Under the pieces are notes generated by a model, which saw nothing but the letters and a program-made list of their open reading frames with translations, had not been told where the DNA came from and searched no databases. Positions 13,607 to 31,290 of a DNA stretch of 45,502 nt are shown one piece after another (positions within the stretch are counted from its first letter, which is position 1; each line of letters opens with the position of its first letter). A program made the position numbers and the translations under genes. Source of the stretch: Candidatus Zixiibacteriota bacterium (GTDB lineage Bacteria > Zixibacteria > MSB-5A5 > JAABVY01 > JAHJOQ01); contig JAHJOQ010000164.1 in NCBI GenBank assembly GCA_018820315.1, forward strand, positions 1-45,502, in the 5' to 3' direction.

Positions 13607-15484
13607 TTAGTATATGTGGTGGATGTCCCGCTTGTTCATCTCCCACTTGTTTGTAGTCGGATGCCAGGTGCAATTCGCAAACACTTCCCAGTCTTTCTTC
13701 ATTTCCGGACAGTCTGACCGGAAGTAATATCCCGGCCAACGTGTCTCTTCACGGAACAGGATAGTGCGAATGTGCGCTTCGGCCTGCCACATGCGGTGGA
13801 CATTCTCCCAGCAGCGCATCAGTTCGTGGTATCCCTCGGCACCCAACTTCTCCGCATCTTCCCGCAGGAAGTCGAGCAGTTCGAGACCTTTCTCGAGGTT
13901 CTCTTTGCTAGTCTTGAAGTGGACGCTTACACCACCTGCATATTCGTCCATAATCTTCTGCAGACGGAACATGAACGATTTCGGCTTGATGTAGTTCGGG
14001 TTGACATCAGGGTCTGAGGTGTAGTTCTTGAATTCCTCGAACCTGTCGAGCGGGGCAAGGATCTTCTTCTTGAGTTCTTCGACCATCGCTGCATCGACTT
14101 TTGGCGCTGCTGCGTTGTCTTTTGCGTAGGCAACCGCGGCCTTGCCTGCGATTCTGCCTTCAGTGCAGGAGCCGGAAGAGAACTTGTGGCTTGATGCGCC
14201 AGAGGCGTCACCGGCTGCGAACATACCCTTTACGGTGGTCATGTTCGTGTAACCCCAGAAGTATTCCTTCGGAGCAATATCTTCGGGACCTGAGACCCAG
14301 GCACCGGAGGCGCCGGAGTGCGACCCGATGAAGTATGGCTCACAGGCTGCGATTTCAGACGGTCTCTCTTCAGGAGCAATATTGCTCGCTGCCCAGAGAA
14401 TCGCCTGTGAGATCGTCATATCCAGGAAGTCTTCCCAGGCTTCCGATTCGAGCTCTTTCAGTTTTTTCTTGCGCTCTTTTTCATCGGGAACCGCTTTGGA
14501 CAGATTCTCAATTGCTTCCTCTGTTCTCATATAGATCGGGCCTTTGCCGTCCATAACGTCCAGCATCATGAGCCAGTTGCGCAGGTTGGCCGGAACCGGC
14601 TTGACCGCACCGTATGGCTGCCATTTTGCCAGCTCGTCCTTGCGCTCGATCATGTAGTTGCCGCCGGTCGCATTTGTTGCACGCGACTTGAAAAGCAGGA
14701 ACCACGCACCGACCGGACCATAGGCGTCCTTGAAACGTACAGGGATGAACCTGACTTCCTGACAGGTCATTTCTGCACCGGCGCGGAGGGTGAAGTATGC
14801 GCTTGCACCGGAGTTGAACGGCGGATACCAGGAGCGGCCGAGGCCTTCGCCGACCGAACGCGGCTTGAAGACGTGGACGGCGCCACCCATTGCGACCATC
14901 GTAGCTTTAGCTTTGAAGACGTAGAACTTGTTTTCACGGACCGAGAATCCAACAGCGCCAACGCACTTGTCGCCGTCCATCAACGGCTCGGTTGCGAAGA
15001 CTCTTTCGTAGATGTTTTCGGTGCCGAGAGCGTTCTTGGCTGCTTCAGCAACGATGACCTTGTAGGATTCACCGTTGATCATGAGCTGCCAGCGTCCTTC
15101 GTGAACATAGTTGCCGTCGGCGTCTGTCCAGATCGGCAAACCCCACTTCTCGAACAGATGAACTGTCGAGTCGACGTGGCGCGCAATGCTCGCCACGAGA
15201 TCTTCGCGGGTGATACCCATAAGATCGTTTCTAACATAATCGACGTAATCTTTGATGGTGTTCTGACCATCTTTGACACCGACATACTGGTTGATCGCGG
15301 AGAGTCCCATGGCGACCGCGCCTGACCTGTCCATTGCCGCTTTGTCAACCAGCGTGACTTTAAGACCGTTCTTCTTTGCCCAGTAGGCGGCCTCTGTGGC
15401 GGCACCACAAGCTGCCATACCACCACCGAGAATCAGAACGTCAGTATTGATTTCTACTGTTTCCCATTTATCCCAGACTGCCAT
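13607..15484 (-). CDS. aprA: Adenylylsulfate reductase subunit alpha
   Basis: FAD-containing subunit of dissimilatory APS reductase, which reduces adenosine-5'-phosphosulfate to sulfite and AMP (or the reverse). 625 residues, a typical length for a reductive AprA. The Rossmann motif VLILGGGMAACGAATEAA is at the N-terminus, followed by MDRSGAVAMGLSAINQYVG and, mid-protein, GDASGASSHKFSSGSCTEGR. The ATG follows a GAAAGGAA site. It is the last gene of sat-aprB-aprA, 18 bases from aprB, and is followed by a strong terminator. Electrons are expected to come from the Qmo complex, of which only qmoC is in the window. Confidence 0.98.
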   Translation of the reverse strand: MAVWDKWETVEINTDVLILGGGMAACGAATEAAYWAKKNGLKVTLVDKAAMDRSGAVAMGLSAINQYVGVKDGQNTIKDYVDYVRNDLMGITREDLVASIARHVDSTVHLFEKWGLPIWTDADGNYVHEGRWQLMINGESYKVIVAEAAKNALGTENIYERVFATEPLMDGDKCVGAVGFSVRENKFYVFKAKATMVAMGGAVHVFKPRSVGEGLGRSWYPPFNSGASAYFTLRAGAEMTCQEVRFIPVRFKDAYGPVGAWFLLFKSRATNATGGNYMIERKDELAKWQPYGAVKPVPANLRNWLMMLDVMDGKGPIYMRTEEAIENLSKAVPDEKERKKKLKELESEAWEDFLDMTISQAILWAASNIAPEERPSEIAACEPYFIGSHSGASGAWVSGPEDIAPKEYFWGYTNMTTVKGMFAAGDASGASSHKFSSGSCTEGRIAGKAAVAYAKDNAAAPKVDAAMVEELKKKILAPLDRFEEFKNYTSDPDVNPNYIKPKSFMFRLQKIMDEYAGGVSVHFKTSKENLEKGLELLDFLREDAEKLGAEGYHELMRCWENVHRMWQAEAHIRTILFREETRWPGYYFRSDCPEMKKDWEVFANCTWHPTTNKWEMNKRDIHHIY

Positions 15485-15502: not shown

Positions 15503-15943
15503 TTACTTGACGCTTGGAATCTGTGCCATACCTGATGACTCAGGCTCTGTACATAGCAAATCGCTCTTCAGGTCGTCAGTAGCGGTGGCGAATCCGCCTT
15601 CCGGTTGCGCTTGACCTTCCTCAGTGGTGCGGATCGGGAATTTGAATCTCTTCAGCATACCGTTCCTGAACTTGACAGTCCACATGATGGAGTCTGTGGA
15701 ACGCAGCGGGGTGACCGTCGCGCCCATTGGGACAAAATCAGCATAACCGCGAACCTCGACTGCCTGGACCGGGCAGATCTTGACGCAGCTGTAGCATTCC
15801 CAGCACATCTCGGGTGCCTGGTTGTAGGCTTTCATTTTGTCCTTGTCCAGCACCATCAAGTCGTTGGGACAAATGTGCTGACAAGCTGTCTTGTCCAGCG
15901 CCTTGCACCCATCGCACTTGTCGACAATTACGAAGCTAGGCAT
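15503..15943 (-). CDS. aprB: Adenylylsulfate reductase subunit beta
   Basis: Iron-sulfur subunit of APS reductase, carrying two [4Fe-4S] clusters that pass electrons to the FAD of AprA. The 146-residue chain has CDGCKALDKTACQHICP (Cys10, 13, 21, 25) and CWECYSCVKICP (Cys47, 50, 53, 57), then VRGYADFVPMGATVTPLR, typical of AprB. The C-terminal tail, which wraps around AprA in known structures, is present. An AAGGAGG site precedes the ATG. It lies between sat and aprA with spacers of 37 and 18 bases, so the three genes form one operon. Confidence 0.97.
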   Translation of the reverse strand: MPSFVIVDKCDGCKALDKTACQHICPNDLMVLDKDKMKAYNQAPEMCWECYSCVKICPVQAVEVRGYADFVPMGATVTPLRSTDSIMWTVKFRNGMLKRFKFPIRTTEEGQAQPEGGFATATDDLKSDLLCTEPESSGMAQIPSVK

Positions 15944-15980: not shown

Positions 15981-17216
15981 TTATTTCTTGATCTTCTTTT
16001 CTGCTTCACCGGTCGCATGACCGTGCATCTTGACTTCAACCTTATCTTCATCTTTGATACCGGCGTAGTACTCTCTCAGAATGCTTAGAATTTCCGGACG
16101 GCTGAATTCCGCCGGGACTTCGCCCTCTTCCGAAAGTGCCTTACGCAACGCGGTGCCGGAGAGGAAGAGTCTGTCTTCTTTGCCGTGCGGGCAAGTCTTC
16201 ATCGAGACCATTCCACCACATTTGTAGCACCAGAAAGTCCAGTCGATCGGCAGCATCTTGCATTTGAGCGCACCATCCCACAGATCGAAGAATATCTGCT
16301 GAGCGTCGAACGGACCATAGTAATCACCGACGCCGGCATGATCACGGCCGATGATCATGTGTGTGCAGCCGAAATTCTGGCGGAAGAGCGCATGCAAAAG
16401 GCCTTCGCGCGGTCCGGCATAACGCATATCAAGTGGATAACCACCTGTAACAACGCGATCCTTTACGAAGTAATTCTCGACGAGAGTATTTATGCAGTCG
16501 ACGCGAACATCCGCTGGGATGTCGCCTGGTTTCAGTTTGCCCACGAGTTGATGAATATAGATTCCGTCTGAAACCTCGCAGGCTATCTTCGCAAGGTATT
16601 CGTGTGAACGGTGCATCGGATTGCGAAGCTGCAACGCTGCGACGGTCTTCCAGCCCTTTTCCGCAAAAATCGCGCGGCTTTCGGCTGGGCGCTGATAGAC
16701 ATCGGCGAACTCTTTGACAAAATAGCTCTCAGAGAGGACTTTCACCGGACCGGCAATATTCCATGCCTTCTGGGCTTTCACCATCTGGACGCCGGGATGC
16801 TGATCATCAGTTGTTTTGAATACATGCTTGCACTCGAAGTCCTTGTCGATCTGGTACGATTCCGTAACCTTCATCGTACCCATGATCTCCTTGGTTTCAC
16901 CCGAAACAAGGCAGATCTCAGTTCCGGGGGCGAGTTTCTCGTCGTGAGAGAGTGTGATCGGGATCGGCCAGAAGAGCCCACTGCTCATCTTCATATCGGC
17001 GCAAACGCCTTTCCAGTCCTTCTCTCCCATGAATCCCTCTAAGGGAGTGAAGCCTCCGATACCGAGCATAATCAGGTCGCCGGTTTCGCGAGTCGTCATC
17101 TCAAGCTTAGGAAAACCTTCCGCTCTCTTGAGCTCTTTTTTCCTGTCCTCACCGTCAAGCATGAGGATCTTCAGCTTATCACTTCCGTGCGGGGATATCA
17201 GATCTGATTTGGCCAT
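15981..17216 (-). CDS. sat: Sulfate adenylyltransferase (ATP sulfurylase)
   Basis: Activates sulfate with ATP to give APS and pyrophosphate, the first step of dissimilatory sulfate reduction. The 411-residue chain has the family motifs [14 protein letters not shown] and [17 protein letters not shown], and ends in a lysine-rich tail. Zinc-ribbon-like Cys residues ([15 protein letters not shown]) are present as in bacterial homologues. It is the first gene of the sat-aprB-aprA operon. Upstream lie two promoter-like elements that share a TTGTGA(A)n motif, described separately. Confidence 0.97.
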
Positions 17217-17278: not shown

Positions 17279-17414
17279 ATGCACTTTTTTTCACAAGCTT
17301 TTGACAAGCTTAGAGCCACTTGTATCTAATCGGTAGAATACATCACAAACTTGATCCTAATTTCCTTATCAGTTTTCGCCACAAGAATGTAACTTTTTTC
17401 ACAATCTCTGTCAA
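17279..17414 (-). promoter_or_regulatory. Tandem promoter-like elements of sat with repeated TTGTGAAAAAA motif
   Basis: The distal element reads, on the minus strand, TTGACA (17414-17409), a 17-base spacer and TACATT (17391-17386). The proximal one has TTGTCA (17307-17302) and TGCATT (17283-17278). Inside each spacer is an 18-bp stretch, 17387-17404 and 17279-17296, identical at 15 of 18 positions; minus-strand sequence TTGTGAAAAAAGTTACAT and TTGTGAAAAAAAGTGCAT. The first is an imperfect palindrome resembling CRP/FNR- or Rex-type operators. Rex regulation of sat is reported in Desulfovibrio. No regulator gene is in the window, so the factor is a guess. Confidence 0.45.
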
Positions 17415-17718
17415 GGGAATTCTGAAGGTTTTTTGGGGTTTCGAGTAGATATTTGATGAATTATTCTTCTGAAACTTAAGTGATTCGAGAGACTTACACC
17501 TGCAGACCCCAATCTGATGATCCAATGAGGCAGGCAGCATCGCAGACTTCGTTAGATTCGGGTAATCGGGCAAGATCAACATATGTCTCCGATTTTTCGG
17601 TCATCGAAAGCAGATTTTGCACCGAGTATACGCTATTACAGGAAAAATCGAATTCAGAGTCGGAGCGGTCTCAGGATGGAACAATCACCCCAAGTGGCTC
17701 GATATAACAAACAGACTT

Positions 17719-17769
17719 CGTGAAATAAGTAGCAAAATTCTTGACAGTAGGTCGAGGCCGGACTATTTT
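17719..17769 (+). promoter_or_regulatory. Sigma-70-like promoter of qmoC with an upstream motif related to the sat sites
   Basis: TTGACA at 17741-17746, a 17-base spacer and TATTTT at 17764-17769. Just upstream, 17719-17735 reads CGTGAAATAAGTAGCAA, matching the sat-side motif GTGAAAAAAGTTACAT at 12 of 16 positions. The qmoC start is 69 bases after the -10 box. Confidence 0.5.
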
Positions 17770-17838: not shown

Positions 17839-19014
17839 ATGGCTGAACCGAAATATCTGGAGCCTGACACAGACCTGATCAGTGAAGTCCGAAGGGCTGG
17901 TGGGGATAGTCTGAAGAAGTGCTATCAGTGCGCTACCTGTTCGGTTGTCTGCAACCTGTCTCCTGCCGACAACCCGTTTCCGCGCAAGGAGATGATTCAG
18001 GCGCAGTGGGGTATGACTGATGCACTCATGAGAGATCCTGATGTTTGGCTCTGCTACCAGTGCAACGACTGCAGCATTCACTGTCCACGCAATGCAAGGC
18101 CGGGCGATGTGCTTGCGGCAATCAGGTCTCACATCTATCGCAAGTTTGCTGTTCCATCGTTCATGGGTAAGGCACTCGCGAATCCCGGTGCACTCCCGAT
18201 TCTCTTTCTCGTTCCGATACTCATTATCACTGCCTGCATATTTTTGTCGGCTCCTCGAACTACTGATGGAAGTTTTCTGTTTCTCAGCAGCTCTGTCATT
18301 GATTTCAACATATTCATGCCGCACAGCACGGTGGATGCACTGTTCGTCATTGGCAATATCCTGATTTTCATACTGGCAGCAATCGGCTTTCGACGATTCT
18401 GGCGAGGTCTTCAGGGCAGGGGAGAGGATCAGCGAATGTCCTTCGTTTCCGGAATGGTGCAGGCTCTCAAAGAAATATTCAGCCATGCACGGTTCTTTGA
18501 ATGCGAGACGAACAAGTCTCGGAGTTGGGCACACATTATTCTCTTTGCTGGATTCGGCGGCGCGATGATTACCACCGGGTGCGTATTCATCTTCATCTTC
18601 ATACCATATTATCTGAATATGCTCGGTCTCGAGCAGTTCGAGTCGTTCTTCCATTTGCCTCTCGACATCTCTCATCCGGTCAAGATTCTTGGCGCTGTCA
18701 GCGGAGTCCTCATGACGATCGGCGGGGGAATGCTGATCGTACGAAGATGGTCGGACAAGGAGAAGGTAGGCGCGAGCGGATATGCTGATAATCTGTTCCT
18801 GTGGACGATCTTCCTGGTCGGCGTCACTGGCATGCTGTCGTGGCTGATCAGGCTCTCCGGCTTAGCGATGCCTGCATACACAGCATATTTTCTGCATTTG
18901 GTTTTTGTGTACTTTCTTCTTTGGTATATGCCGTATTCGAAATTCGCGCATATGATCTATCGCTCGCTGGCTCTTGTCTACGCAAAACAGATAGGACGCG
19001 AACCAAGAAGCTAA
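17839..19014 (+). CDS. qmoC: Quinone-interacting membrane-bound oxidoreductase subunit C
   Basis: Membrane subunit that links the quinone pool to APS reductase in the Qmo complex. The N-terminal HdrC-like domain has two [4Fe-4S] motifs, Cys28/31/34/38 (CYQCATCSVVC) and Cys72/75/78/82 (CYQCNDCSIHCP). From residue ~115 a HdrE/cytochrome b-like part has about six transmembrane helices with possible haem His. The 391-residue length fits QmoC. It is divergent from sat. Usually the order is sat-aprBA-qmoABC, but no qmoA or qmoB is found on either side. They may lie elsewhere, or another HdrA-like protein may replace them. An HdrC/E fusion of a different complex is the alternative. Confidence 0.85.
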   Translation: MAEPKYLEPDTDLISEVRRAGGDSLKKCYQCATCSVVCNLSPADNPFPRKEMIQAQWGMTDALMRDPDVWLCYQCNDCSIHCPRNARPGDVLAAIRSHIYRKFAVPSFMGKALANPGALPILFLVPILIITACIFLSAPRTTDGSFLFLSSSVIDFNIFMPHSTVDALFVIGNILIFILAAIGFRRFWRGLQGRGEDQRMSFVSGMVQALKEIFSHARFFECETNKSRSWAHIILFAGFGGAMITTGCVFIFIFIPYYLNMLGLEQFESFFHLPLDISHPVKILGAVSGVLMTIGGGMLIVRRWSDKEKVGASGYADNLFLWTIFLVGVTGMLSWLIRLSGLAMPAYTAYFLHLVFVYFLLWYMPYSKFAHMIYRSLALVYAKQIGREPRS

Positions 19015-22392: not shown

Positions 22393-22556
22393 GCACTCAC
22401 TTCACTTGAATCAAAACGACCTCCGATTTTGGTTGATTCCACTACTAAAGCGCAATAAATTTGTTTATAGCATGTTTCGGTTTGCCGGAGAATATGCGGT
22501 GGTTGCACTGAACAAAATTCCATAGACTATTCAATATGAGTTCTGAGAGGCACGAG

Positions 22557-23885
22557 ATGAAGAACAGCATGAGTTCTCTCTGGAAAAGTGAGGATTGGTG
22601 GGCGGTTTGGATCGGCTTCGCGATCATTATCGCAGCTCTCCTGAGAATCCTCCCGAAAATACCGAGCGTGGGCAAGTGGACTGACGATCCGTTGGCTGCA
22701 TTCAGCATCATCAAAGAGGGAGTTGCGACAGGTAACATCCTTCTTCCACTATTGATGCTGATGATAGGACTCGGTTTGCTGACAGCCGTTGGTGTCGCAT
22801 CCATGAAGACAGAGAAGCTGGTAAAATACCTTGCGGGATTCGCTGGTGTCTTCATCCTGGCCACATTGGCATACTGGATAGCCGATCAGGTCAACATCAA
22901 ATACTGGGGATTAAGTTATGCTATGTGGGCTCTGCTGGTCGGGCTGCTTGTCTCGAACACTATCGGTACTCCCAAATGGCTGAGAGCGGGTGCTAGAACC
23001 GAGCTTTTCATAAAGATAGGGCTTGTGCTGATGGGTTGCGAAATCTTATTCAAAAAGATCATGGCGCTCGGTGCTCCCGGTCTGATGGTCGCCTGGATCG
23101 TAACTCCGATAGTGATCATCTTCATGTACAAATTTGGCACAAAAATCCTCAAGATGTCGAACAAATCACTGATTATCATAATTGCTGCGGCAACCTCTGT
23201 ATGCGGGGTCTCGGCGGCAATAGCTGTAGCAGCGGCATGCTGTGCCAAGAAAGAGGACCTCACACTTGCAGTCGGAATGACTCTTATCTTCACCGTGCTG
23301 ATGATGTTCTTCATGCCTCTTGGAATAAAGTACATCGGAATGAATGACATTCTCGGCGGCGCATGGATGGGTGGCACAATCGACTCGACCGGAGCGGTCG
23401 TTGCTGCCGGATCGATGCTCGGAGATGCTGCAGAGAAAGTGGCCGCGGTCGTGAAGATGATACAAAATGTGCTGATCGGCGTCGTCGCTTTCGTTGTCGC
23501 CATATACTGGGTGACACGTGTAGAGTGCGAGGGCAGCGATCACAAGCCGAATGCTATGGAAATCTGGTACAGATTTCCGAAGTTCGTGCTCGGATTTGTG
23601 GCTGCGTCACTCGTTTTCTCATTCATAGTTGTGCCGGCATCATCCGGAGACTTCAAACTCGTCGAGGCGAGTTACATCAAACCATTTACGAGAGAGCTAA
23701 GAGAATGGTTCTTCTGTCTCGCTTTTGTCGCGATCGGGCTTGAATCGAATTTCAAGGACCTGACGAGCAGAATGGAGGGAGGCAAGCCGCTGATCCTCTA
23801 TGGTGTTGGTCAGACATTCAATTTGATCCTGACTCTGTTGGTTGCATACCTTGCATTCATCGTCTTCTTCCCGAATGCGATCTGA
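22557..23885 (+). CDS. UPF0324-type membrane protein (putative sulfate exporter family)
   Basis: 443-residue polytopic protein with about 11 transmembrane helices, matching the YeiH/UPF0324 family named putative sulfate exporters. The family signature region ICGVSAAIAV appears here as VCGVSAAIAVAAACC, followed by the GAWMGGTIDSTGAVVAAGSM loop. The substrate is unproven for the family. GAGAGG at 22545-22550 supports the ATG at 22557; an ATG at 22536 lacks a site. A 92-residue membrane protein gene follows 8-20 bases later. With sat and apr nearby, a role in sulfate or sulfite movement is plausible but inferred. Confidence 0.85.
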   Translation: MKNSMSSLWKSEDWWAVWIGFAIIIAALLRILPKIPSVGKWTDDPLAAFSIIKEGVATGNILLPLLMLMIGLGLLTAVGVASMKTEKLVKYLAGFAGVFILATLAYWIADQVNIKYWGLSYAMWALLVGLLVSNTIGTPKWLRAGARTELFIKIGLVLMGCEILFKKIMALGAPGLMVAWIVTPIVIIFMYKFGTKILKMSNKSLIIIIAAATSVCGVSAAIAVAAACCAKKEDLTLAVGMTLIFTVLMMFFMPLGIKYIGMNDILGGAWMGGTIDSTGAVVAAGSMLGDAAEKVAAVVKMIQNVLIGVVAFVVAIYWVTRVECEGSDHKPNAMEIWYRFPKFVLGFVAASLVFSFIVVPASSGDFKLVEASYIKPFTRELREWFFCLAFVAIGLESNFKDLTSRMEGGKPLILYGVGQTFNLILTLLVAYLAFIVFFPNAI

Positions 23886-24172: not shown

Positions 24173-24682
24173 CGACGAGATTCCTCTCTTTGATCTGATC
24201 ATGAGTCTGTCTACCACCCAGACCGCCGCGATGGCGAGGAGCCCAGATACCAAAGGAATAGCAAACCGCGTCGATGACGCGAGCCTGGTCTTCATGTCTG
24301 CCGCCACCGCATTGTCATGAAATGGCCTAAACAGATCAATACGCATGAGTGACTTTGCGACTGCAGTGAGGTCTACGAAGTATGCCACTGCAGCAAGCGT
24401 CATCAGCAATCCTGCGGCAGCCACCAGAGATTCGAAGTGTCTCTGCCAGAAGGGGGCTTTCATTTCGGCGACAATCGAATTTAGGATTGTCGAAGTGAAA
24501 TCAACCGGTAATTCGAAGCCTGATTCATCGCTGAGGCCGACATTCAGTCTGCTGTATTGTTCGGCCCTCGTGTGGCATTCAGGGCATATATCGAGATGAT
24601 TCGCGATCTCTGCCGAGCAATCTACTGATCGCTCATCGAGAAATCCCTGAATCTCCTCATCTGTCAGATGCTTGCTTCCCAC
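24161..24682 (-). CDS. Membrane-bound anti-sigma factor with zf-HC2-like domain
   Basis: 173-residue protein. The N-terminal zinc-binding anti-sigma motif is His29-x3-Cys33-x2-Cys36 (HLDICPECH), as in ZAS-type anti-sigma factors that sequester ECF sigma. Two transmembrane helices follow (LVAAAGLLMTLAAVAYFVDL and IPLVSGLLAIAAVWVVDRLM), with a periplasmic loop between them. The start overlaps the end of the ECF sigma gene by 19 bases, the usual coupling. It probably keeps that sigma at the membrane until a signal arrives. Confidence 0.85.
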   Translation of the reverse strand: MGSKHLTDEEIQGFLDERSVDCSAEIANHLDICPECHTRAEQYSRLNVGLSDESGFELPVDFTSTILNSIVAEMKAPFWQRHFESLVAAAGLLMTLAAVAYFVDLTAVAKSLMRIDLFRPFHDNAVAADMKTRLASSTRFAIPLVSGLLAIAAVWVVDRLMIRSKRGISSLLA

Positions 24683-25257
24683 AGGTCCTCCATTTGGTAT
24701 TTCGTCAGAAGACGATCCTTCAGAAGCTTTCTGGCCCGGAATAGATAACTCTTCACTGTACCCTCAGGCATGTTCATGATGCTTCCGATTTCGCGATAAC
24801 TCATGTCATCGAGATGATAGAGAGTGATAATCGCTGCGAACTGCGCTGGCAGCTTGTCGATCTCGGTGCGAAGCCTGATCGAGACATCTTCCAATTCGGC
24901 TTGCTTATCCGGTGGTGCCGAATCATCACAGTGAGATTCGATACTTCCGCCATTCGAGGCAATGTCTTCATATAGCGGAATTTTCTTCTTCTCCAGATAA
25001 TTGCCGCACGTATTATACGCTATCCGTGCGATCCAGGTCGAGAGCTTCGATTTGAACTGAAAGCTCGATAGATTTTGATAGACCCGAATAAAGATATCCT
25101 GGCAGAGATCTTCGCGGTCTGTTTCATTGTGTACCATTCTAAACACGATATGGCTCACCAAGCGTTTGTTCTGATCGACAACGGCTCTGAATGCCTCGGC
25201 GTCGCCGGAGATAATTTTGTGTACCAGGCGCTCGCTGTCATCCAGATAATCCTCCAT
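24664..25257 (-). CDS. ECF-type RNA polymerase sigma factor
   Basis: 197-residue sigma-70 family factor. Region 2 (about 22-90) has VFRMVHNETDREDLCQDIFIRV and WIARIAYNTCGNYL; region 4 (about 130-190) has LPAQFAAIITLYHLDDMSYREIGSIMNMPEGTVKSYLF. It directs polymerase to promoters of a stress or envelope regulon. The cognate anti-sigma overlaps its 3' end. It is divergent from the DUF6249-like gene, with an inverted-repeat-rich spacer between, so autoregulation or co-control of that gene is possible. Confidence 0.93.
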   Translation of the reverse strand: MEDYLDDSERLVHKIISGDAEAFRAVVDQNKRLVSHIVFRMVHNETDREDLCQDIFIRVYQNLSSFQFKSKLSTWIARIAYNTCGNYLEKKKIPLYEDIASNGGSIESHCDDSAPPDKQAELEDVSIRLRTEIDKLPAQFAAIITLYHLDDMSYREIGSIMNMPEGTVKSYLFRARKLLKDRLLTKYQMEDLWEASI

Positions 25258-25876: not shown

Positions 25877-28450
25877 CTATAATATAATCACAAATTTCCC
25901 CACCTGATTTCCCCATTCAGATTCGATTGAGAATAGATAGATGCCACTTGCGACGAGTTCATTGTGGCGAGTCCTGAGGTCCCATTGAATCTTGGAATCG
26001 GTGTCGGTGAATCTCCCAGGATGATCGAGCTCCCTGACAAGTTCGCCGGAGAGAGTGTATATCCTGATCTTGCACCTGGGTGGCAGATTCACGAAGTGTA
26101 TTCGTCTTGTATGATCCACGAATCCCGAGTGTCCTTGGTCCTCGTAGTCTGATGCCGCGTATCGTCCATCCCCATAATACGGGTTCGGATAAACCTCGAC
26201 TGGAATGTTCTCTCTGAGTGATACGGAGGCATCGTTAATCGCCCATACTTCTGTCGCGTTGGATAGCGGTGAGCTTTCCAGTGGCTCAAGGTCCCGTTCA
26301 TAGTCGCCGAAATCGAAGGCGGTGACCGAGAAATACCACGGGATCGATGACAACAGATTGTCCATCTCAAACTCATATTCGTAATACTTGTGATACAGCA
26401 CAGAGTCGCCTGTCAGCGGATTAAACCCCTTAACCCACAAATCGGGATTGAGAGAGTCGATTTCAGGTATTATCAGACCCTCTTCGATCTCTTCAGCGAA
26501 TCTCTTTCTGATACCGGTGGCATTGTGAACGAACGCTCCATCCTCCCAGCCCGCTATGGACTGATTCCACTCCAGAGGGGTGAAGCAGAGAACAGACCCA
26601 TCGTGATCGAATCCGACTCCATCATCATTGAGGGGATACACTTCGGGATCGAATGACTGGCCGAACATCTCGCGCAATGTGCTCAGCTTGAGTGGTATGC
26701 TGGCTACCTCGAACTCACTCTTATCAGAATTCCAGCGCAGCACTGTGTAGTCGAGGAAATCCCGTGATTCGAGCATTCCGAGCCTGTCGATTCGGGGCTG
26801 TCGTCCCATGTAGACTCGGTATCCTTCGAAATCGATCTGTCTCGTGAAGGGGTCTCTTGATGTCTCGCTGATGAGACCGTTCCACCTGAGTGTGATCTTG
26901 CCGATAGTGGTCGACTGGCGCAGAACGGGCGGGGGAGGTGATACGGCTGCCCTGAAGTCAGGAACGCCATCGCCTGCGTAATAGAACGTGTCCAGAATCT
27001 CCTGGCCGTTGACCGTGTCCGGTATCAACCAGAACGGCCCGGAATCATCGTCACCATCAGTATCATAACCCGGATTGTCGTATACCCAGTTTGCCCAGAC
27101 GGCATTGAGCGCAGCATCTCTGAAATCGACCTTACTATAGTAGGTGTGAGGGGAACGCGGAAGATTATCAGCTGCATTTCGAGGATCTCTGTGGAAATCC
27201 TCGCCCGCAAGATATGCAAGCGTGAACGGTACAGTGTCACCAACGTCGATATCAAATGGTCCTGCCGAGAGCACAAACCGAGTGTCATATCCATCGGCAA
27301 TCGTCTCAGCGAATGTTGGAGGTGGTAACCAGCCCTCCTGCGTATGATCTTCCGCTGAGTAAATCTGATCGTAATCGTGTTCGCCGTTGGACAGAAGGTA
27401 GTATTTGTTGCGGTCTCCCTCTGGCGTGCCGAGACCACCTGTTCCGTAGTTGCGCTTTGTGGCATCGAGCATCGGCCCCCAGTCAAAGGCTGACGTACCA
27501 TTTGACGTCCACCAGTTAAACGCTACCTTCGTTTGGCGACTGGAAAGGCGCATCACTCGTACACCTGCGACGGATGTCGCACTTCGGTCATCGAAGAAAT
27601 CGACATTTGGATCGCCGTCATTGTCGGCAATCCATGCAAAATCAATCGTGTCGAGGAAGTTGCCCCCCGCGATTGAGGGATAAGTTTCTCGAAATCCGCA
27701 GACGTCATCTTCGTGACCGCCGACGTCGTTGGAGATGTGGTTGACGTCCCCATCGACGTATAATCCAACATAGACGTTCTCCAGCGATTTCGCTCCGATG
27801 TTCCGAATCTGGTAGTCGAGCAGAATAAAGTCCTGAGCGTATCCAACACTCCATGAGTAACTGGTCTGTTTGACCTCGATATTAAGTGGCACATGCAGCT
27901 CCCCGTTGTATCCGGTTCCAACGTATGACTCTTCGTCGAGAGTGTCTGTGTAGGTCGCGATGAACTCAAGATCGGCGTGTGCCTCTTCATCATAATCTGG
28001 ATCAGATGGCCTATTCGAGCGCTTGTGCAGACCGCAGTGAGTCGGGTCAGCGCATGGATTCATAGCATAGACATACTGCCAGCCATCGAAGCCTTCCGAC
28101 ACCAGTGTGTCCTCTCCGACGACGGCGCCGATCCACAGGGCTGCAGCATAGAGATATTCAACCTGGGACCCTGCGGGGAACTGCGCCGAAGGGGCGCTGA
28201 GCCCTGTCTCACAATCATTCCATTCACCATCTTCGCTTCCGAACAGTCCGAAATTCGACACAGAGAAGAGGAAATTGCTGTATGTATGCGTGCAGACCTC
28301 AGTATACGGGCGTTCTATTCTGGTTGTCTTGAATCTGCCTTCTGCAGAATCAGGAAGAGGGGAAGTGTTATTCGCCTCTGCGAAGAGCTGAGGTGCTATC
28401 AGGAGCAATATACATCCAGCCAACAGTACGTTACATTTCGTTCTGCACAT
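25877..28450 (-). CDS. Large secreted protein with C-terminal FlgD/Por-type sorting-like domain (paralogue 1)
   Basis: About 857 residues. A signal peptide (CNVLLAGCILLLIAPQLFA) is followed by a region shared with the next gene upstream: THTYSNFLFSVSNFGLFGS, DCETGLSAPSAQFPAGS, YAAALWIGAVVGEDTLVS. A fibronectin-like stretch around ITLRWNGL comes later. The last ~100 residues have EVYPNPYYGDGRYAASDYED ... IRIYTLSGELVREL ... NELVASGIYLFSIES ... GKFVIIL, the shape of FlgD-Ig/T9SS tail domains of FCB bacteria. Probably exported to the cell surface. GGAG with 8-base spacing supports the ATG at 28450; an ATG at 28468 is also open. The ligand or enzyme activity is unknown. Confidence 0.78.
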   Translation of the reverse strand: MCRTKCNVLLAGCILLLIAPQLFAEANNTSPLPDSAEGRFKTTRIERPYTEVCTHTYSNFLFSVSNFGLFGSEDGEWNDCETGLSAPSAQFPAGSQVEYLYAAALWIGAVVGEDTLVSEGFDGWQYVYAMNPCADPTHCGLHKRSNRPSDPDYDEEAHADLEFIATYTDTLDEESYVGTGYNGELHVPLNIEVKQTSYSWSVGYAQDFILLDYQIRNIGAKSLENVYVGLYVDGDVNHISNDVGGHEDDVCGFRETYPSIAGGNFLDTIDFAWIADNDGDPNVDFFDDRSATSVAGVRVMRLSSRQTKVAFNWWTSNGTSAFDWGPMLDATKRNYGTGGLGTPEGDRNKYYLLSNGEHDYDQIYSAEDHTQEGWLPPPTFAETIADGYDTRFVLSAGPFDIDVGDTVPFTLAYLAGEDFHRDPRNAADNLPRSPHTYYSKVDFRDAALNAVWANWVYDNPGYDTDGDDDSGPFWLIPDTVNGQEILDTFYYAGDGVPDFRAAVSPPPPVLRQSTTIGKITLRWNGLISETSRDPFTRQIDFEGYRVYMGRQPRIDRLGMLESRDFLDYTVLRWNSDKSEFEVASIPLKLSTLREMFGQSFDPEVYPLNDDGVGFDHDGSVLCFTPLEWNQSIAGWEDGAFVHNATGIRKRFAEEIEEGLIIPEIDSLNPDLWVKGFNPLTGDSVLYHKYYEYEFEMDNLLSSIPWYFSVTAFDFGDYERDLEPLESSPLSNATEVWAINDASVSLRENIPVEVYPNPYYGDGRYAASDYEDQGHSGFVDHTRRIHFVNLPPRCKIRIYTLSGELVRELDHPGRFTDTDSKIQWDLRTRHNELVASGIYLFSIESEWGNQVGKFVIIL

Positions 28451-28634
28451 GGTCTGATCTCCTGCCATTCCTTTAGTTTTGGTTGCTGCTGCTCAGTTCT
28501 GTCGGTGCGTTCCCGTATAAGAGACGGATAACTCTAACAAACATAAAATGGAAAAGCAATATGAATGCAAGCGAAACGTTGGATGGTCAGGCGGCAATAC
28601 TTGCAGAATGATTCTCGGATTACACATAGAACTG

Positions 28635-31211
28635 CTAGAGTATGATCAGTAACTTGCCGATCTGGTTGCCCCAGTATGATTCGACAACGAACAGGTAGAT
28701 GCCGCTTGTGACGAGCATGTCGTCCTTTGATTTCAGATTCCAGAGAAGCTCGGTGGCGGATCTGCTATCACCGCTGGGGTGAACCAGTTCTCGCACCAAT
28801 TCGCCGCTAATCGTGTAGATTTTCAGCGTGCAGTACGGTGGGAGATCGATGAAGTGGATACGACGTTCCCTGTCAAAAATACCGGTGTGGTTCGGATCCT
28901 CATACCCTGCTCGTGCGTATCGGTCTTCACCGTAGTATGGATTTGGATAGACGGTCACTTGCGGACCCCGGTCGAAATCGGTGGATGGAAAATCTGCCGG
29001 ATTCGCCTGGATCAGGTTATCGAGGGGATTGCTTTCTGCGGAGACCGTTCCGGTAGAAATATCTCCAAAATCGAGCGCAGTGACTGAAAAGTAGCAGGTT
29101 TCGTTCGGGTAGAGATTGTCAATTGAATATTCGTACTCAAAGAACTTATGGTACATCACCTCTTCACCCGTCATGCGGTCTTGTTCCGTGACCCACAGAT
29201 CGGGGTTGAATGAGTCTATCTCCGATGTGACGATGCCGCGTTCTATTTCATCCGCATAGGTCTTCTTGATACATGAGTGATCAAATGTCGTCGCGCCGTC
29301 AGTCCAGCCTCTGATCGACTGGTTCCATCCTACCGGGGTGAAGCAGTAGAACACTCCGCCACTCTCGAAACCATATTCGTCACCGTTGCACAAGTAGTCG
29401 AGAGGGTCGAAATCGTCGCCGAACATTTCCCACAGCGAAGCGAGTGTCATCGGTTCGCTCATTAAGCGGAATCTGATCTCATCAGAGGACCGGTATCTGA
29501 CAGAGAAGTCGACTTTGTCCTGGCTGCAGACGAGCGCAAGGGATGGAATCGTAGGGTGGCTCCCCATATAGACACGATAGCCTTCAAAATCGGTCCAGCG
29601 AGTGATGGGATCGATCATGGATTCGCAGTCAATTCCATTCCATCGAAGTGTCACGGAACCGTAATCTGATTCGTGTCGAAGTCGTGGTGCCGGCGGAGAG
29701 GTGACTGCTCGATAGTCCGGCACACCATCGCCGGAATAGTTGAATGTATCGATTACTTCCTCGCCGCCAATTGTATCTACTATAACAAAGTAAGATCCGG
29801 CGTTGTCATCGCCATCCGTATCGACGCCGGGATTGTCAAACACCCTCGCTGCCATGCTCGCGTTCAGACCGATATCATCAAAGCTCAGAGTATTATAGAA
29901 GCTATCCGGCTCCATACCTCCGTCGCGCCTCATATAATTATCGAAGCTGGTCGGATCCTGATGAAATCTCTCTCCCGCTACATAAGCGATCGTAATCGAC
30001 TTTGTCTCATCGGGCAGGAGTTGGAACGGTCCCACGGAGATCATGCAGCTTACGTCTGTTCCCGCCGCGATCATTGCGGAGGTGGGTGGAGGAGGCATCC
30101 ATCCGTAGACGCTGAAATCCTTCCCAGAGAATATCTGATCATAGTCATGCTCTCCATTAGACAGAACGTAGTACTTGTTGCGGTCACCTTCAGGAACACC
30201 CTGCCCGCCGGTGCCGAAATTCCGCCTTATTGCTTCCATCATCGGCCCCCAGTCGAATCTCGAATTGCCATTGAGCGACCACCAGTTGAAACTTGTTGTC
30301 ATATCCTCTTCGGGGAGCTTCAGGAATCGAATGCCGGCTACCGAGCGAGCACTATGTTCATCGAACACACCTTCTACTGGATCGCCATCGTTGTCAGCAA
30401 TATAGGCGAGATTGATCGTATCCTCAAACCCATGACCGGCAGACGAGAGGACAGTATGCCTGAAACCACTAATATCATCATAGTATCTGTCATAGACGAA
30501 TCTGCTTCCGACATCGCCATCGACATATATGCCGACGTAAACTTCGCTCAGATCCGCAGGCCCAATGTTCCTGATATCATAGTCTATTATTATGAAGTCC
30601 TCAGCATGTGGCACACTCCAGGAGTAGCTATGCTGTGTTACCTCGATGTTGAGCGGAATATGTTCTCTGCCACTCCAGTCATGCGGTACGTACCTCGGAT
30701 CCACCAGAGTATCGGTGTACGTAGCGATGTACTCCTGATCAGCATGGGCATCCTCATGATAGTACCAGTCAGACGGTCTGCTGGAGCGCCGCTCAAGCCC
30801 GCAATTCGCCTCTGAGCAGGGATAGAGTTCGTTGGCAATCTGCCACCCGTCCGCACCGACTGAAACAATAGTATCATTACCGACCACCGCTCCAATCCAA
30901 ATGGCGGCCATATATAGATGCTCTATTCCGCTGCCAGCAGGGAATTCAGCGGATGGCGCGGCGAGTCCTGTCTCGCAATCCCTCATTTCCCGACCATAAC
31001 TGCCGAAGAAGCCCCAATTTGAAATCCCCATCCATAGGTTATTGTATGTGTGAATACAGGTCTGAGTATACGGTGGCTGATTGATTGAGGCCTTGTGAAA
31101 ACGACCCACTTCGGCGACGCCACTGGGCTTGTCAATCTCTCCCATTCCCGATCCTGCGGTCAGGAGAAAGAACACCGCAACGAGAACCAGCGCTGAACTC
31201 TTCGTAGCCAT
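28635..31211 (-). CDS. Large secreted protein with C-terminal FlgD/Por-type sorting-like domain (paralogue 2)
   Basis: About 858 residues, a tandem paralogue of the gene just below it (same domain order and many shared motifs: CIHTYNNLWMGISNWGFFGS, DCETGLAAPSAEFPAGS, YMAAIWIGAVVGNDTIVS). The C-terminus has TVYPNPYYGEDRYARAGYED ... LKIYTISGELVREL ... SGIYLFVVES ... GKLLIIL. The signal peptide begins MATKSSALVLVAVFFLLTAG. An ATG at 31259 would add 16 odd residues; AGAGG at the right spacing favours 31211. It is about 185 bases upstream of paralogue 1, so they may be cotranscribed. Probably a surface protein; no catalytic motif is visible. Confidence 0.78.
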   Translation of the reverse strand: MATKSSALVLVAVFFLLTAGSGMGEIDKPSGVAEVGRFHKASINQPPYTQTCIHTYNNLWMGISNWGFFGSYGREMRDCETGLAAPSAEFPAGSGIEHLYMAAIWIGAVVGNDTIVSVGADGWQIANELYPCSEANCGLERRSSRPSDWYYHEDAHADQEYIATYTDTLVDPRYVPHDWSGREHIPLNIEVTQHSYSWSVPHAEDFIIIDYDIRNIGPADLSEVYVGIYVDGDVGSRFVYDRYYDDISGFRHTVLSSAGHGFEDTINLAYIADNDGDPVEGVFDEHSARSVAGIRFLKLPEEDMTTSFNWWSLNGNSRFDWGPMMEAIRRNFGTGGQGVPEGDRNKYYVLSNGEHDYDQIFSGKDFSVYGWMPPPPTSAMIAAGTDVSCMISVGPFQLLPDETKSITIAYVAGERFHQDPTSFDNYMRRDGGMEPDSFYNTLSFDDIGLNASMAARVFDNPGVDTDGDDNAGSYFVIVDTIGGEEVIDTFNYSGDGVPDYRAVTSPPAPRLRHESDYGSVTLRWNGIDCESMIDPITRWTDFEGYRVYMGSHPTIPSLALVCSQDKVDFSVRYRSSDEIRFRLMSEPMTLASLWEMFGDDFDPLDYLCNGDEYGFESGGVFYCFTPVGWNQSIRGWTDGATTFDHSCIKKTYADEIERGIVTSEIDSFNPDLWVTEQDRMTGEEVMYHKFFEYEYSIDNLYPNETCYFSVTALDFGDISTGTVSAESNPLDNLIQANPADFPSTDFDRGPQVTVYPNPYYGEDRYARAGYEDPNHTGIFDRERRIHFIDLPPYCTLKIYTISGELVRELVHPSGDSRSATELLWNLKSKDDMLVTSGIYLFVVESYWGNQIGKLLIIL

Positions 31212-31290
31212 GTCATACCTCTTTCTAATCCCCCGGATTAGCAGAACTCGATTCTGCAATTCACACTGTGCTCCAACTATACGGACGTCT

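Follow-up and report, generated by a model that had tools for sequence, protein, structure and literature searches.

In the 45,502-nucleotide stretch of DNA analysed here (hereafter the window), which comes from a Candidatus Zixiibacteriota bacterium, the genes sat, aprB and aprA lie on one side of a 622-bp intergenic region and the divergent qmoC on the other, and related TTGTGA-type sequences recur upstream of both sat and qmoC. The locus thus raises the question of whether these sequences are operators of one regulator and, if so, of which; an earlier note on the same DNA had proposed a single redox regulator, either Rex-like or CRP/FNR-like, that would control sulfate activation and electron supply together. 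Most of what is known about how dissimilatory sulfate reduction is regulated at the level of transcription comes from Desulfovibrio. Judged by its neighbouring genes, the sat of the window is dissimilatory; its closest named relatives by sat similarity are Candidatus Zixiibacteriota, and gene order and spacing indicate that it probably shares an operon with aprB. The features of the locus are collected in Table 1.

Table 1. Genes, promoter hexamers and motif copies at the sat/qmoC locus (positions in the window).
Feature	Position	Strand	Basis or remark
sat, ATP sulfurylase	15981..17216	-	NCBIfam NF003166, 487 bits against a cut-off of 387
aprB	15503..15943	-	3' of sat; NCBIfam TIGR02060, above cut-off
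aprA	13607..15484	-	3' of aprB; NCBIfam TIGR02061, above cut-off
qmoC	17839..19014	+	divergent from sat; NCBIfam NF038018, 405 bits against a cut-off of 300
Proximal sat copy, TTGTGAAAAAAAGTGCAT	17279..17296	-	degenerate in its right half; scores -2.7 bits with the rex-site matrix
-35-like TTGTCA before the proximal sat copy	17302..17307	-	weak; good -10 absent
sat -10 hexamer TACATT	17386..17391	-	17-nt spacer to TTGACA; consensus promoter
Distal sat copy, predicted operator, TTGTGAAAAAAGTTACAT	17387..17404	-	10.6 bits on the rex-site matrix
sat -35 hexamer TTGACA	17409..17414	-	sequence; TTGTGAA just after a -35-like hexamer is common in relatives
qmoC copy, degenerate candidate operator, TCGTGAAATAAGTAGCAA	17718..17735	+	0.8 bits on the rex-site matrix
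qmoC -35 hexamer TTGACA	17741..17746	+	sequence
qmoC -10 hexamer TATTTT	17764..17769	+	17-nt spacer to TTGACA

The two 18-bp copies upstream of sat that the earlier note described are real, both of them TTGTGAA-type and identical to each other at 15 of 18 positions; the further statement that they lie in the spacers of two promoter-like elements holds for the distal copy (TTGACA-N17-TACATT) and less well for the proximal one, where the TTGTCA hexamer is without a good -10. The distal copy begins 4 nt after TTGACA, extends into TACATT and occupies most of the promoter spacer, its right half sharing bases with the -10, and it matches the Rex consensus TTGTGAANNNNTTCACAA, an 18-bp palindrome, at 11 of 14 positions. 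Only a few relatives show a -35 next to their more proximal copy, and the existence of two genuine sat promoters was rejected, the distal one alone being well formed and widely conserved. At the proximal place several relatives carry TTGTGAAAAAAGTCACAT, which is more palindromic than the proximal copy of the window. The copies start 108 bp apart in the window, and adjacent starts are 26 to 230 bp apart in the 19 relatives with at least two sat copies, distances of 76 to 79 bp recurring; a phasing between copies was rejected for want of a common value, and because no common spacing exists we make no claim of looping at sat. An additional TTGTGA lacking a matching right half, TTGTGATGTATTCTACCG, is present between the two copies (17331-17348, minus strand). 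The third related copy, said to lie just upstream of the qmoC -35, is present as well, ending 5 nt before TTGACA; it is degenerate in the window genome, and the corresponding position in many relatives is occupied by TTGTGAAAAAAGTAACAA or a close variant of it.

The genome of the window encodes one Rex (a single PF06971 match above the cut-off), which aligns from residue 8 to residue 206 of its 214 with Rex proteins of solved structure, at E-values down to 2.3e-47, and 35 bp before its gene lies a perfect TTGTGAAACGTTTCACAA, agreeing with the consensus at 14 of 14 positions. Rex is present in 29 of 30 relatives, and an upstream site with 12 to 14 of the 14 consensus bases is found at 28 of 30 rex loci, own locus included; in G020 (2.3 Mb, completeness not stated) a sat site is present and no Rex match was found. 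The rex sites, chosen by the published consensus (PMC5317091, PMC5355995) within a 180-bp stretch, were the only sites on which a scoring matrix was trained; the sat sites were not in the training set but were known beforehand, and the threshold of 8 bits, under which both the proximal sat copy and the qmoC copy of the window fall, was fixed after some scores had been seen.

How far such resemblances could be due to chance was judged both within the window and across relatives. A pair of 18-mers at least as alike as the sat pair arose in 9 of 200 dinucleotide shuffles of the 622-bp intergenic region, and the window alone is therefore only suggestive; across relatives the enrichment is clear, and it is this comparison that carries the case. 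Among 80 sat loci, 29 were taken as zixibacterial and 50 as others, while L040, which has no sat start, was left out of the sat counts and used as a genome handle; L010, L022, L023, L025, L027 and L028, titled 'bacterium' or 'candidate division GN15', were placed among the 29 by sat similarity and list order. Counting the window and relatives, which are not independent of one another, TTGTGAA stands 3-5 nt after a -35-like hexamer upstream of sat at 20 of 30 loci, and a TTGTGAA or TCGTGAA site stands 5-7 nt before the qmoC -35 at 19 of 23; at least two TTGTGAA within 400 bp upstream of sat were found at 20 of 30 loci. At 8 bits, the rex-site matrix finds 39 sites in 11.6 kb of DNA upstream of sat, spread over 25 of 29 loci (the exceptions are L024, L026, L033 and L035), against a mean of 0.42 and a maximum of 2 sites in shuffles of the 29 regions. 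The other 229,758 positions of the same loci hold only 17 sites, and 15 of the 17 lie no more than 350 bp from qmoC; outside the zixibacterial set, only 4 of 50 sat loci reach the threshold, and a wider occurrence of the motif at sat was rejected. Upstream of qmoC, sites were found at 15 of the 22 loci with a tblastn match (shuffle mean 0.2) and none reached 8 bits at the remaining seven; 7 of the 29 loci were without a qmoC match, and the starts of L020 and L026, where the match did not run from residue 1, were moved by hand.

The genome-wide motif search suggested by the earlier note extends the pattern well beyond this locus. A strict pattern, TTGTGAANNNNNTNACAW, has 13 hits at 12 places in the own genome, as compared with 1 for the reversed control, and 62 hits against 4 in six relatives, the 62 including some inside reading frames or without a close gene. 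In the own genome eight of the places lie before the genes for ETF-QO, citrate synthase, two multihaem cytochromes, nuoA, a putative qmoA, sat and rex; two more precede an Rrf2 regulator beside a GlcD-like oxidase and an RsbRD_N gene with dsrM, dsrK and dsrO behind it, and the remaining two are found before a DUF1015 gene and within a 348-aa frame. The nuoA site recurs in 4 of the 6 relatives when genes are equated by protein cluster, the model match having been checked on 2 of the resulting 5 genomes. What we call the putative qmoA, a name given in this analysis, is an HdrA-like flavoprotein of 425 aa, next to which comes another HdrA-like frame, with no match to the NCBIfam models named Qmo. 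Own loci counted, the rex-site matrix finds sites at 23 of 27 putative qmoA loci and at 19 of 25 dsrA loci (L273 to L275 for qmoA and L301 to L305 for dsrA were left out as fragments, second copies or dsrB-like); at dsrM it does so at 8 of 30 despite a longer scanned stretch of 1,000 bp, five of the eight sites, like that of the own genome, lying at about -650 to -680, and dsrM was accordingly rejected as a conserved target. Some of the qmoA, dsrA and dsrM matches sit away from the common place. At dsrA the commonest form of the site has TAATGAA as its left half; a conserved TAATGAANNNNTTCACAW is seen just 5' of the -35, mostly about 240-260 bp before dsrA (L284, L285, L290 and others), departing from the Rex site in one half and identically in many genomes. 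Strict-pattern sites also precede genes for a membrane pyrophosphatase (model match for L184) and TmcD (model match for L199), in two relatives each by protein cluster (L184, L185, L199 and L202).

Considering these results together, we think it probable, at roughly 0.8, that the TTGTGAA elements serve as operators for Rex, a repressor that senses NADH. The comparative evidence favours the proposed single redox regulator over sat (activation) and qmo (electron supply), with a degenerate copy at the qmoC of the window genome itself; and because sat and qmoC share a rex-type site, one redox sensor probably switches on both functions. As to the candidates that had been named, Rex fits, given its one gene, its own conserved site and the predicted nuo, citrate synthase and ETF-QO targets, and the CRP/FNR-like candidate is not supported, the recognition helix of the one such protein in this genome above the cut-off lacking the CRP arginine. 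A site occurs at rex itself and at NADH-related genes, and the rest of the target list, as predicted from sequence, fits an NADH switch. The position of the sites is one in which a repressor would block transcription at sat (spacer and -10), at rex and at many putative qmoA genes (around the start), and repression is thus the predicted mode at sat, qmoAB and rex because the site lies in the spacer or around the transcription start. This does not apply to qmoC and dsrA, whose site ends 5-7 nt upstream of the -35 and is centred near -50 (dsrA was read by eye, and the centre was reckoned).

What the sequences show directly is the motif with its positions and conservation, and a Rex, identified as such, with a conserved site of its own. 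From them we infer that Rex binds the sites, in which direction it acts at sat, qmoAB and rex, and any influence it has at qmoC and dsrA. At a low NADH/NAD+ ratio, Rex dimers on the promoter-embedded sat site would keep sat-aprBA off, and the proximal site would also be bound where it is intact; as NADH accumulates, Rex would be released and sulfate activation would begin. The same Rex would act at qmoC, the putative qmoAB operon, dsrMKJOP, nuo, citrate synthase, ETF-QO and rex, and because one regulator would act on both, electron supply and acceptor activation would follow one redox signal.

A different division of labour would have a second regulator bind an A-tract form of the site, TTGTGAAAAAAGTNACAW, at the sulfate genes, leaving to Rex the C/G-centred form at rex and in central metabolism. 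The two groups do contrast consistently at the centre and at position 12: in the sulfate-gene sites the centre is an A-tract and position 12 is mostly G or A, whereas position 12 is T in all 28 rex sites. For sat, 18 promoter sites entered this comparison; the sites of L033 and L035 and the second one of L018 were omitted, and two others, the second of L017 and the proximal one of the window, were counted with the proximal group. The position-12 contrast is softened, however, because the consensus used to select the 28 rex sites itself has T at that position and because sites at nuoA, a usual Rex target, have G or A there in 4 of 5 cases. The nuoA sites are moreover intermediate between the two groups, some sites at sulfate genes match the Rex site perfectly or nearly so (for example, TTGTGAACAAGTTCACAA upstream of dsrM in G009), and a search limited to Rex and CRP/FNR proteins found no second regulator. 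We regard this division as unlikely.

The motif also resembles that of a CRP/FNR-family regulator of the HcpR kind, which would bind TGTGA-N6-TCACA at these promoters. The Desulfovibrio HcpR regulon has the signal TTGTGAN6TCACAA at sat and apsAB, sites that were first ascribed to HcpR (Rodionov 2004, PMC545781), and HcpR1 of D. desulfuricans is reported to bind TGTGA-N6-TCACA, with low affinity at sat (PMC5701242). This signal is near-identical to the zixibacterial sites: the five listed for sat and apsAB reach 4.0 to 18.3 bits with the zixibacterial Rex matrix, which separates Rex from HcpR sites poorly, giving 11.0 bits to the D. desulfuricans hcp site listed by Rodionov. CRP/FNR-type helix-turn-helix matches are also widespread (30 of 31 genomes, above the cut-off in 28). 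HcpR is, however, a CRP/FNR-type protein, and the arginine at CRP R180, tied to the TTGTGA signal in the Rodionov study (PMC545781), is absent from 24 of the 25 readable zixibacterial CRP/FNR proteins, L149 being the one that has it; 30 loci (own and 29) were considered, 5 were unreadable, and further, mostly weak, matches lie outside this set. The one such protein above the cut-off in the own genome has an FNR-like recognition helix with S at the R180 position. G004 (completeness not stated) has a sat site and no CRP/FNR match, and G012 and G020 have none above the cut-off. Several qmoA and qmoC half-sites read TTGTTA, like the Rex motif of T. saccharolyticum. Neither the motif nor an FNR-type palindrome was found before the CRP/FNR genes at the 24 of 28 loci examined, own gene included. 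A protein of this family as the main binder was rejected on the missing arginine, the empty upstream regions and G004, and we consider it quite improbable.

UP elements lie just before the -35, and A-tracts do stand beside or within these promoters, with the site 5-7 nt before the -35 at qmoC and dsrA. Yet it is hardly credible that no regulator is involved and that these are A-rich promoter or UP-like sequences, since TTGTGAA and a large part of the palindrome's right half persist at three different promoter places, namely the spacer (sat), the start region (rex and putative qmoA) and upstream of the -35 (qmoC), and match the rex site.

Control of sat by Rex is of a kind already known, because it is established in Desulfovibrio: in D. 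vulgaris Hildenborough, Rex represses sat (Christensen 2015, as cited in PMC7531388), and sat transcripts are given there as about 11-fold higher without rex and about 4.6-fold higher without the site (mutant IR1and2). The likeness lies in a Rex-type site in the sat promoter region; as far as that account goes, the present case differs in phylum, in the divergence of sat-aprBA from qmoC, in the A-tract centre, and in a qmoC with its own promoter and site. Many sulfate-reduction genes are described as co-regulated by Rex in Desulfovibrio (Ravcheev 2012, as cited in PMC4215793), and on the zixibacterial side the sites are at the putative qmoA, at qmoC, at dsrA and, in a minority, at dsrM. Caldithrix abyssi has a TTGTGAA-type site 38 bp upstream of rex, as in Zixibacteria, although its reported target is a hydrogenase operon (PMC5317091). 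The literature search found no paper on Rex in Zixibacteria, on Rex with qmoABC, or on Rex with sat and qmo together. What would be extended here, on the predicted operators, is the reach of Rex to another phylum, to a divergent sat/qmoC arrangement and over much of the pathway.

If this reading of the elements as Rex operators is true, the same NADH switch would operate in a second, uncultured phylum and cover most pathway steps, and the operator sequences supplied here are testable. In D. vulgaris, control of this kind over Sat has been linked to the fractionation of sulfur and oxygen isotopes (PMC7531388). More tentatively, and with considerable doubt, Rex in Zixibacteria may be the master switch for the greater part of sulfate respiration (sat-aprBA, qmoC, qmoAB, dsrAB and, in some genomes, dsrMKJOP), recruited separately from that in Desulfovibrio and acting in two modes. 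It would repress from sites within the promoter core, whereas from sites about 50 bp upstream of the start, as at qmoC and dsrA, it would act in another way, perhaps by activation or by forming a loop.

Several other genes of the window deserve brief mention. A 449-aa protein encoded near the sulfate genes (22536-23885, plus strand) matches the YeiH putative sulfate exporter family below the curated cut-off, and an ECF-type sigma factor (24664-25257, minus strand) is SigW-like, scoring below the cut-off of the SigW model. Two neighbouring proteins of 863 and 874 aa (25877-28468 and 28635-31259, both on the minus strand), without a Pfam match at 1e-5, are 51% identical, a tandem duplicate whose products are perhaps exported.
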